From contig JANZZL010000021.1 of assembly GCA_026419405.1 (NCBI GenBank), positions 1-64,000 of the forward strand: a DNA stretch of 64,000 nt, read 5' to 3'. A model generated the notes under the pieces. The model had not been told where the DNA came from, made no database searches, and saw only the letters and a program-made list of their open reading frames with translations. This DNA is from Paracoccaceae bacterium. GTDB taxonomy: Bacteria > Pseudomonadota > Alphaproteobacteria > Rhodobacterales > Rhodobacteraceae. A program made the translations under genes and the position numbers. Below, in pieces: positions 61,196 to 64,000 of the stretch. Position 1 is the stretch's first letter. Every line of letters starts with the position of its first letter.

Positions 61196-61789
61196 ATGTA
61201 CAGGGTGATCGGCAGTCTGGCGAGCCGCACGTTCCGGGTGCTCTGGGCGCTCGAGGAGCTCGGGCTGCCCTACGAGCACGTCGCGGCCCTGCCGCGGTCC
61301 GACGCGGTCCTGTCGGTGAACCCGGCGGGCAAGGTTCCCGTCCTGATCGCCGAGGGCGTCCCGATCACGGATTCCACTGCCATCCTCCAGTTCCTCGCCG
61401 ACCGGCACGGCGGGCTCACCTACCCCGCCGGAACGCTCGAGCGCGCGCGGCAGGACAGCCTGACCCAGTTCCTGCTCGACGAGTTCGACGCCGCGCTCTG
61501 GATGGCCGCGCGGCACAGCTTCATCCTGCCCGAGGCGCTCCGGCAGTCGGCGATCAAGGACAGCCTGAAGTGGGAGTTCGAGCGCAGCCAGAAGACGCTG
61601 GTCGCGCGCATGGGCACGGGGCCCTTCCTGATGGGCGACCGGATGACGGTGCCCGACGTGATCCTGACCCATTGCGGCACCTGGGCGACGGTGGCCAAGT
61701 TCCCGGTGGTGGAGCCGAGGCTCAAGGACTACCTCGCCGCGATGCGCGAGCGCCCGGCCTACCGGCGCACGGCCGCGCTCGGGGCCTGA
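61196..61789 (+). CDS. Glutathione S-transferase family protein
   Basis: The 197-residue protein has an N-terminal thioredoxin-fold domain (RVIGSLASRTFRVLWALEEL, NPAGKVPVL, ITDSTAILQFLADR) and a C-terminal helical domain (MGDRMTVPDVILTHCGTWA). It probably conjugates or reduces electrophiles with glutathione; the class is uncertain. GGGGAGG lies before the ATG. It is convergent with imuB. Confidence 0.9.
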   Translation: MYRVIGSLASRTFRVLWALEELGLPYEHVAALPRSDAVLSVNPAGKVPVLIAEGVPITDSTAILQFLADRHGGLTYPAGTLERARQDSLTQFLLDEFDAALWMAARHSFILPEALRQSAIKDSLKWEFERSQKTLVARMGTGPFLMGDRMTVPDVILTHCGTWATVAKFPVVEPRLKDYLAAMRERPAYRRTAALGA

Positions 61790-61832
61790 GGGAGCGGCGG
61801 GCCGGGCCGGATCGCTCCTGGGTTCGGTGCGC

Positions 61833-63590
61833 TCAGGCGAAGACCCCGTGGCAGAACCAGCCGCCCGGCACCGCGCCGCCGTGGGCATAGAACAGCCAGA
61901 GCCGCTCGCCCCCGGTGGTCTCGACGCGCCAGTAGTCGCGCGTGCCGCTGCGCCATTCGGGCGCGTCGAGCCACCATTCGGGCGCGATCCGCTCGGGCCC
62001 CGCGGCCGAGGCGAGCGTGAGCTCCCGCCGCCGCCAGCGGAACCGCGGGGGCAGGTCGGGCCCCTCCGGCGCGGCCACAGGCTCGGGCCGGAACAGCACG
62101 AGCGGCCGCGGCCGGGGCGGTGCCGGCCAGGGCACGGGCGAAGGCGCCGACCAGGCGGCGGCCAGCACCTGCGCCGCCTTCTCGGGGATGTGGCTCTCGG
62201 CGGGGTGGAGCCGCACCACGGCGTCGAGCCCGATCCGCGCGCCGATCCGGCCGATCAGGTCGTCGAGCCCCGCGCCGGCGGCGAGCCGCCGGCCGGCCTC
62301 CTCGGCCGCCTCCAGATGGCCGCGGTGCTGCACCGGGTACACCGGTTCGGTCGCCACCGCCACGAGGCGGAGCATGTCGATGCCCTCGCCGGCGTCGATC
62401 CCGCCGAGCTTCAGCGCCAGCACCGGGCGCAGCCGGTCGGGCTCGGCCGCGGGCCGGGCGAGCCCGATCTCGACGGTCTCGACCCGCCGGTCGACCCGGT
62501 GCGCCTCGAGCCTGAGCCGCCGGGCGCCGTGCCCGCGTTCGGCGAGCCGGGCGCAGAGGCGCGGCAGCATCCGGTCGAGCGCCGCGGCCACGTCGGCCTC
62601 GAGCCCGATCGGCTCGGGCAGGGTCAGCCGGACGGCGGAGACGGGATCGGCGCGGGCGGGCGAGACCGGCTCGGGTTCGAGCCCCAGCGCCTGGTCGAGC
62701 CGACGCAGCACCTCGCGCCCGAAGCGGCGCGCGAGCGGCCCCCGCGCCGGGCCGGTCAGGTCGCCGATCCGGCGCAGGCCCACGCGGGCAAGGGCGGCGA
62801 CCGTCTCCTCCGGCAGCCGCAGGGCCGCGACGGGGAGCGGGGCGAGCGCGGCGCGGGTCTGGCCCGGCGGGGCGATGATGCCCCGCGGCACGGCGGCCGG
62901 CGCCGCGGAGGGGGGCGGGGAGGGGGGCTGTCTGCCCCCCGCCGCCTGGCGGCGGCTCCCCCCGAGGATACTTGCAGCAGGGAAGGAGACCGGGACGGGG
63001 GGGCTGGCGGTGGGCAGCGCGGCCTGCGTCCGGGGCCGGCGCGCGGCGCGGGCGCGGGTGGCGCGCGCCTCCTGGTCGATGGCATCGCCGGACCGGTGCG
63101 GGGGCGCCTCCCCGGCCCCGCCGTGGCGCGCGAGCGCCCAGGCGGCGCCTGGCGTGTCGGCGATGGCTGCCCGCAGGGTGAGGCCGAGCGCCGCGCAGTC
63201 GGCCTCGACCTCGGCCAGCAGCGCGGTCTCGCCGCCGAAGAGGTGGGCGCAGCCGGTGAGATCGGCAACCAGGCCGTCGGGCGGGGCCTCGGCCACCCAG
63301 GGGCTGAACCGGCCGGCCCAGCGGCGCAGCGCCGAGAGGAAGGCCGCCTCGGCCGCGGGCGCCGCGGGACGGGTGACGAGCGCCGGGCACATGGCGAGCG
63401 CGTCGCGGAGCGGCTGGCCGGCCCAGAGCCCCGCCGCCTCGGCGGCGGCCGAGAGCGAGGCCAGGACCTGCGCCTGCGCCACCTCGGCCACCACCGCGAA
63501 GGGGGTCTCGCCGCGGCCGCGGTCATGGCGCAGCCAGCGTTCCGCGGCGAGGCGGGGGAACCACAGCGAGAGGATCCGGCGGCCGGGCAT
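61833..63590 (-). CDS. imuB: ImuB, inactive Y-family polymerase-like SOS mutagenesis protein
   Basis: The 585-residue protein opens with RILSLWFPRLAAERWLR and has the Y-family fold without its catalytic acidic residues (PPDGLVADLTGCAHLFGGE region). In the ImuABC mutasome ImuB links DnaE2 to the sliding clamp for error-prone bypass synthesis. A low-complexity insert (about 172-240) contains, at 201-226, the translation of a REP-like element. A LexA-type box lies 19 bases before the ATG. imuA and dnaE2 are not adjacent in this window. Confidence 0.9.
   Translation of the reverse strand: MPGRRILSLWFPRLAAERWLRHDRGRGETPFAVVAEVAQAQVLASLSAAAEAAGLWAGQPLRDALAMCPALVTRPAAPAAEAAFLSALRRWAGRFSPWVAEAPPDGLVADLTGCAHLFGGETALLAEVEADCAALGLTLRAAIADTPGAAWALARHGGAGEAPPHRSGDAIDQEARATRARAARRPRTQAALPTASPPVPVSFPAASILGGSRRQAAGGRQPPSPPPSAAPAAVPRGIIAPPGQTRAALAPLPVAALRLPEETVAALARVGLRRIGDLTGPARGPLARRFGREVLRRLDQALGLEPEPVSPARADPVSAVRLTLPEPIGLEADVAAALDRMLPRLCARLAERGHGARRLRLEAHRVDRRVETVEIGLARPAAEPDRLRPVLALKLGGIDAGEGIDMLRLVAVATEPVYPVQHRGHLEAAEEAGRRLAAGAGLDDLIGRIGARIGLDAVVRLHPAESHIPEKAAQVLAAAWSAPSPVPWPAPPRPRPLVLFRPEPVAAPEGPDLPPRFRWRRRELTLASAAGPERIAPEWWLDAPEWRSGTRDYWRVETTGGERLWLFYAHGGAVPGGWFCHGVFA
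62922..62987. repeat. REP-like palindromic element inside imuB
   Basis: On the plus strand two hairpins (GGGGGCTGTCTGCCCCC and GCCGCCTGGCGGC) are followed by CCCCCCGAGGATACTTGCAG and CAGGGAAGG. This arrangement resembles the abundant intergenic elements I recall from Rhodobacterales genomes. Here it lies within coding sequence and is read in frame on the minus strand as roughly residues 201-223 of ImuB. Confidence 0.65.
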
Positions 63591-63608
63591 CGGCGGGCAG
63601 GGGCATGT

Positions 63609-63623
63609 GTTCCTGTTATGTTC
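63609..63623. promoter_or_regulatory. LexA-type SOS box (GTTC-N7-GTTC) upstream of imuB
   Basis: GTTC (63609-63612) and GTTC (63620-63623) are separated by 7 bases, the exact alphaproteobacterial LexA box. It lies 19 bases upstream of the imuB ATG, so imuB is probably repressed by LexA and induced by DNA damage. Confidence 0.85.
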
Positions 63624-63684
63624 CGATTACCCGCAAGCCGGGGCGGAGTCGAGTCCGCCACCGCCCTGCCCGGCGGGCGCGCCG

Positions 63685-64000
63685 TCAGAGGAAGGCGCGC
63701 ACGTCCGTGAGCCGGCCGGTCACCCCGGCCGCCGCGGCCATCGCGGGGCTCATCAGGTGGGTGCGGCCGCCGCGGCCCATGCGGCCCTCGAAGTTGCGGT
63801 TCGAGGTCGCCGCGCAGCGCTCGCCGGGGGCGAGCTGGTCGGGGTTCATGCCCAGGCACATCGAGCAGCCCGCCAGCCGCCATTCGAAGCCCGCGTCGAT
63901 GAAGATCTGGGCCAGCCCCTCCTCCTCGGCCTGCAGCCGGACGAGGCCCGAGCCGGGCACCACCATGCCGCGCACCCCCGGCGCGAGCCTGCGGCCCTTG
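63685..64000 (-). CDS. leuC: 3-isopropylmalate dehydratase large subunit, C-terminal end (partial)
   Basis: The minus-strand frame is open to the window edge and encodes about the last 105 residues of an aconitase-family protein: [16 protein letters not shown], the [4Fe-4S] ligands in [13 protein letters not shown], and [22 protein letters not shown]. LeuC with LeuD isomerises 2-isopropylmalate in leucine synthesis. The missing upstream part lies beyond base 64000. Its stop (63685) is 94 bases from imuB's start. Confidence 0.95.

Follow-up and report, generated by a model that had tools for sequence, protein, structure and literature searches.

A hairpin repeat translated within the ImuB linker of a Paracoccaceae bacterium, and in-frame copies of the same family in other Rhodobacteraceae genes

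A REP-like repeat made up of two hairpins and a tail was found at positions 62922-62989 of the window (the whole stretch of 64,000 nucleotides that was analysed), inside the coding sequence of imuB and between its IMS and IMS_C domains. We favor, with a probability of roughly 0.85, the reading that a two-hairpin Rhodobacteraceae REP was copied into the ImuB linker and has been tolerated there as a passive spacer. A REP copy, of a kind usually located just 3' of stop codons, would have entered the low-complexity linker joining IMS and IMS_C in antisense orientation to imuB, and the insert, having kept the frame, would add about 22 residues to the protein and be put up with as spacer. Since copies in the same genome are mostly free of stops in all six frames and the linker is predicted to be disordered, such an insert could be both translated and tolerated. 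ImuB would then still be working, the peptide encoded by the repeat presumably lacks a function in its own right, and the insert most likely does nothing beyond serving as a tolerated spacer.

Table 1. Position of the repeat, its parts and its host gene in the window
Feature	Position	Strand	Basis and remarks
imuB, host of the translated repeat	61833..63590	-	585 aa ORF; Pfam IMS, IMS_C, DUF6504
Disordered inter-domain linker, residues 187-232, holding 202-223	62895..63032	-	AlphaFold2 pLDDT <50; coordinates converted from residue numbers
Hairpin 1	62922..62940	+	Fold; 7-bp stem GGGGGGC/GCCCCCC, 5-nt loop; in most listed copies
Hairpin 2 (variable stem)	62941..62956	+	Fold; stem varies from copy to copy
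Tail TCCCCCCGAGGATACTTGCAGCAGGGAAGGAGA	62957..62989	+	Sequence reading

All three Pfam domains of the host protein score over their cut-offs (IMS at residues 29-153, IMS_C at 323-412 and DUF6504 at 504-567), and with this domain set we take the protein to be ImuB; as none of the NCBIfam models passed E 1e-10 on it, the name rests on these domains. An AlphaFold2 prediction from 35 sequences had a mean pLDDT of 78.9 and a pTM of 0.56, and fell below 50 around the insert, in a linker rich in Pro, Ala and Gly. In the stretch 61196-63975 imuB is flanked by a plus-strand gene at 61196-61789, presumably GST-like, and by a minus-strand gene that extends from 63685 onward, which we take to be leuC-like from its C-terminal motif. 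DnaE2 is a partner of ImuB, and a match over cut-off to NF004225, which we assume to be a DnaE2-type polymerase, is present in the genome on a contig other than that of imuB (C88, L442).

On the plus strand hairpin 1 of the imuB copy is GGGGGGCTGTCTGCCCCCC and hairpin 2 is GCCGCCTGGCGGCGGC; read on the minus strand the repeat encodes ImuB residues 202-223, SFPAASILGGSRRQAAGGRQPP, with no stop. The preliminary description had placed a hairpin-and-tail element in frame inside imuB and had expected further copies elsewhere in the genome, and both expectations were confirmed, as the frame is open and 21 further matches at E<1e-4 were found. In total the genome holds at least 48 matches at E<=10 and at least 22, the window copy included, at E<1e-4, these counts being lower bounds obtained from 40 of 89 candidates. 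The imuB copy shares 88% identity across 74 bases with its best-matching counterpart in the own genome (E 1.8e-18), the identity to other copies covers the less GC-rich GAGGATAYTT as well, and the tail, with up to 3 mismatches allowed, was present in none of 100 shuffled windows; as a genomic repeat, the element is far beyond chance. The folding energy of the hairpins was ordinary for DNA this rich in GC (35 of 200 shuffles folded at least as well, z -0.98) and, not rising above the shuffles, was dropped as evidence, which lies in the repetition. An Rfam scan of 62000-64000 returned two weak matches, neither at the element, and no target duplication or terminal inverted repeats, features of a MITE, were seen by eye at the repeat. 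By eye, the copies of this genome mostly consist of hairpin 1, a variable second stem, the tail CCCCCCGAGGATAYTT and then about 15 more bases, and some have one hairpin only; two-hairpin copies measure about 60-75 nt and one-hairpin copies are shorter.

Comparison with relatives was based on 131 ImuB linkers from 136 loci (five loci without an anchor were left out); some species are represented twice, and 124 of the linkers are distinct as DNA. A DNA profile HMM was built from 109 copies, with the loci of eight in-frame copies excluded, and applied at a cut-off of E<=0.01; it was used instead of a loose regular expression because the latter had missed the TACTT tail of the window, had picked out six linkers in which no tail matched, and L061 for a lone CGGCCGTATTT. 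The profile detected the element in one of the 131 linkers, the window's own (E 1.3e-15), and in none of the other 130 ImuB linkers examined, and thus the repeat in the ImuB linker is lineage-specific. The insert is known from one genome, a draft of 132 contigs that is 95.6% complete. It had been considered that all homologues might carry the same insert with different DNA, which was not so. Between its anchors the window's linker spans 90 residues, the longest of the set; the insert of about 70 residues described earlier is not all new, as a linker of 56-58 residues is usual (88 of 131). The nearest homologue found (L141 of G163, 78% identical) has 74 residues between anchors, without the element. 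The window's segment exceeds this by 16 residues, fewer than the roughly 22 that the element encodes, so that either part of the linker has been lost or the linkers have drifted.

Matches at E<=0.001 were obtained in 29 of 61 family genomes, own genome included, with at most 15 candidates scored per genome. We examined 161 distinct matches, 32 from the own genome and 129 from others, which are the best matches to the window copy and hence a non-random sample. Patterns of hairpin 1 and tail were both present in 155 and four more lacked the tail pattern; two, both from L025, had neither and are probably not elements. All six were kept in the counts. Using codon models trained per genome, eight of the 161 matches were found in frame inside genes with coding signal on both sides, and the remaining 153 comprise 48 at convergent, 74 at co-directional and 3 at divergent gene pairs, and 28 with an unclear side. 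Of the genes running toward a match, 98 of 101 on the same strand and 87 of 88 on the opposite strand stop ahead of it or no more than 10 bases into it, and 82 same-strand and 66 opposite-strand genes end within 60 bases of it. The home of the repeat is mostly just downstream of stop codons, and two annotated plasmid copies, H3 ("SOS response-associated peptidase") and H1 ("hypothetical protein"), likewise begin at the end of a gene, overlapping it by no more than 9 and 7 bases, respectively, and were rejected as intragenic cases. With copies nearly all outside genes and 130 linkers free of the element, the suggestion that an intergenic repeat had become protein linker in a single lineage was borne out. 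All six frames are open in 12 of 15 own-genome copies, and in 34 of the 109 profile copies versus 8.9% of shuffled copies, the other profile copies having 2 to 5 open frames; no bias was seen toward lengths that are a multiple of three (29 of 109 copies, as cut here).

ImuB is not a single case, as the repeat family also lies in frame in XdhB (in many genera), XdhA and Lnt. In ImuB of the window genome the insert separates IMS from IMS_C; in XdhB of four genomes (own, G066, G006 and G055) it stands between MoCoBD_1 and MoCoBD_2, in XdhA of two (G050 and G042) between Fer2_2 and FAD_binding_5, the first residue of the latter being touched by one insert, and in Lnt of one (G066) between LNT_N and CN_hydrolase. 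NCBIfam models over their cut-offs name XdhB (L016 and L210, two of four scanned), XdhA (L243 and L284) and Lnt (L274). The four genes read the element in four different frames, and therefore no peptide is common to them. The two XdhA copies, L243 and L284, come from two genera and have an identical place and frame.

The XdhB site was surveyed in 149 genomes, one per genus, of which 145 matched the query; 91, mostly the best-scoring, were fetched and 90 were measurable. By eye, 28 of these linkers hold a two-hairpin form, 7 a one-hairpin form, 13 a tail only and 42 no element, the shortest linkers without it having three residues; the profile detected the repeat in 33 of the 90 at E<=0.01, compared with 48 by eye with short forms included. 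In-frame REPs were seen in XdhB rows L210, L211, L273, L016 and L294-L383. All 90 linkers are in frame and have no in-frame stop, and the stop codons counted in some XdhB matches were, in the 11 that were read, all more than 1100 bases off the linker. On a tree of XdhB with the linker excluded, many inner branches of which are weak, presence and absence by the eye labels amount to 25 changes, 8 of them forced by starred branches; shuffled labels gave a mean of 30.2 changes, and 14 of 500 shuffles were as low as 25. Within one genus, in which 20 of 22 genomes had a match, one-hairpin L424 adjoins L434 with none (support 96), one-hairpin L420 adjoins L431 with a decayed tail (98) and one-hairpin L421 groups with tail-only L438 and L439 (95). 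Since neighbouring rows of one genus differ in element state, the XdhB site turns over. The tail-only form, near GCCTCCGGCGGNRGTATTTC..AAGATGAAG (L340, L341, L353, L367, L422-L427, L438 and others), reads ASGGSIS.KMK or alike and is probably the minimal unit of the repeat family. By eye, the XdhB repeats of L337 (G107) and L419 (G167) seem interrupted by another palindromic stretch, likewise in frame and located around GCTGRAAAYCYTCCACCRGARGRTTTYC, which is perhaps a nested repeat of another family.

In most of the genomes shown, one or two 3' tails are typical. When the tails of 16 embedded copies were ranked against 23 genomes, the own genome came first in 10 (mean normalised rank 0.088), and the remaining six ranked 2, 5, 5, 6, 7 and 12, the XdhB copy of the own genome being the one at 6. 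The comparison copies were taken without an individual check for intergenic location and the null assumes independent copies, and because related genomes share tails the nominal P of this test is too small. It left out the ImuB copy, whose TACTT falls outside the pattern, two XdhB copies in which no tail matched and three that had no other copies in their own genome; scored apart, the ImuB tail was closest to its own genome by a narrow margin (mean similarity 0.60 versus 0.38-0.58 for other groups). As to what moves the repeat, PF01797 (Y1_Tnp, RAYT) had no match in the own genome, the 95.6% complete draft, and a RAYT was rejected as the mover there. The six PF01797 carriers among the 61 family genomes have 0 or 1 repeat match each, and no PF01797 match turned up in any of the seven genomes in which 10 or more repeat matches were counted, with up to 15 candidates per genome scored; in this sample RAYT is therefore not associated with the repeat, and copying presumably relied on something else than a RAYT encoded in the own genome today.

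Against the tolerated REP copy, several other explanations have to be weighed. That the ImuB stretch is an ordinary GC-rich low-complexity linker, similar to a REP by chance or convergence, would agree with its Pro/Ala/Gly-rich composition and a hairpin energy usual for that composition, but it is next to impossible to reconcile with the 88% identity that runs through GAGGATAYTT, with the score against a profile from which the imuB copy had been excluded, or with the complete lack of profile matches at E<=0.01 among 1105 codon-shuffled linkers (from the 131 ImuB and 90 XdhB sequences). Only slightly less improbable is that imuB is decaying into a pseudogene or that the insert is an artefact of assembly, as might be feared for a draft genome and a protein that no NCBIfam model names, since the frame of 585 aa is intact with its three Pfam domains, coding signal flanks the insert on either side and the protein is 60-67% identical to 34 homologues. 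The insert might instead have been recruited, its mRNA hairpins or its peptide regulating ImuB, which we consider unlikely. PMC3733652 does express doubt that REPs in repair genes, DnaE2 included, are fortuitous; both hairpins are intact in the ImuB copy, and 26 of the 28 two-hairpin XdhB copies have a first hairpin of at least 5 pairs, copies having been sought by that very pattern. Yet the element occurs in none of the other ImuB linkers examined, its four host genes read it without a common peptide, and hairpin 2 exceeds that of codon shuffles by a modest amount in XdhB (mean 5.1 versus 4.0 pairs, 2 of the 28 two-hairpin copies having been left out of the measurement) and has 6 versus 4.7 pairs in ImuB (P 0.18), so that copying followed by tolerance as a spacer is the reading we retain.

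How the XdhB site came to be filled is a separate matter. A single ancestral Rhodobacteraceae insertion, followed by lineage-wise gene conversion and frequent loss with no repeated insertion, stands at nearly even odds: the copies have a common site and mostly the same tail frame, and the preference of 10 of 16 embedded tails for their own genome would fit conversion, but the 25 changes on the tree with their eight forced ones, the switching among one-hairpin, tail-only and no element within a genus, and the XdhB tail of G066, one base longer with the downstream frame shifted, argue against it. More tentatively, and with some doubt, one may picture a Rhodobacteraceae REP system in which a non-RAYT factor would recognise the lineage-specific tail and would repeatedly insert or rewrite copies at favoured inter-domain linkers, above all that of XdhB, the family being an ongoing source of new protein linkers and ImuB a fresh single case. 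Should XdhB prove to hold a genuine hot spot, the site would offer a handle on what moves REPs in genomes that gave no match to the known REP transposase.

A translated repeat may also be present in a solved protein. The linker between MoCoBD_1 and MoCoBD_2 in chain B of xanthine dehydrogenase structure 2w55 has the sequence ERGGLSAPPSPPEPIATKK, which follows the pattern of the peptide encoded by the repeat, within a wider stretch ..NFYDPPERGGLSAPPSPPEPIATKKTQTTHYGQ.., and it resembles the one-hairpin linker AGGASAPPSPPEGISAKKTQ of G012; 1jro_B scores equally, and the organism of both is, we assume, Rhodobacter capsulatus. From this match of peptide pattern, with protein sequence alone compared, the 2w55_B linker looks like translated repeat; searches of two genera (4 and 22 genomes) did not yield the DNA of the solved enzyme. 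The ImuB and XdhB repeats present a testable case of noncoding repeat DNA turning into protein, in which filled and empty alleles occur in related genomes and one filled allele apparently sits in a crystallised enzyme.

Compared with RAYT-linked REP/REPIN systems, the family is alike in being a high-copy hairpin repeat between genes and differs in that its genome has no PF01797 match. Rickettsia palindromic elements (RPEs) are longer. In PMC12306157, REPs are described as palindromic, present many times per genome and seldom overlapping coding regions, with lengths of 14-40 nt in E. coli; the present repeat has two hairpins, at least 22 similar copies in its genome at E<1e-4, and lies in frame within a gene in 8 of the 161 matches examined. 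PMC3733652 reports palindromic REPs tagged by GTAG or CGTC mostly at 3' ends of genes and some within ORFs, often those of repair genes (uvrA, recB, dnaE2), and proposes flexible linkers as tolerated sites. The Rhodobacteraceae repeat is similarly palindromic, mostly located 3' of genes and found within some ORFs, that of imuB among them, but it has no constant tag at the end of the palindrome (GTAG in 4 of 109 copies, CGTC anywhere in 35 of 109), and one inter-domain site is filled in many genera. As described in the same paper, Rickettsia RPEs are palindromic repeats inserted in frame in many ORFs, a likeness shared by the copies in ImuB, XdhB, XdhA and Lnt, which leave the gene open; RPEs belong to Rickettsiales, whereas coding matches are the minority given above, the two having been compared by description rather than by sequence. 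The main text of PMC3733652 makes no mention of Rhodobacter, Ruegeria, Paracoccus, Rhodobacterales, xanthine or ImuB, and the top matches in open-licence literature included no paper recognisable as dealing with this repeat or on repeats in XdhB or ImuB of Rhodobacterales. Intragenic REPs as such are already known, RPEs of Rickettsia being the earlier instance; as far as these searches reach, the untagged family, the set of genes, the recurrent XdhB site, the agreement of coding copies with the tail of the genome they sit in, and the probable solved protein are new.

A further observation concerns a second DnaE-type stretch in the window genome, which lies at the edge of a contig (G000:C114; L443, L020 and L022) and matches NF004225 positions 529-939, below cut-off. 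Repeats in both orientations are located at most 60 bases after this stretch.
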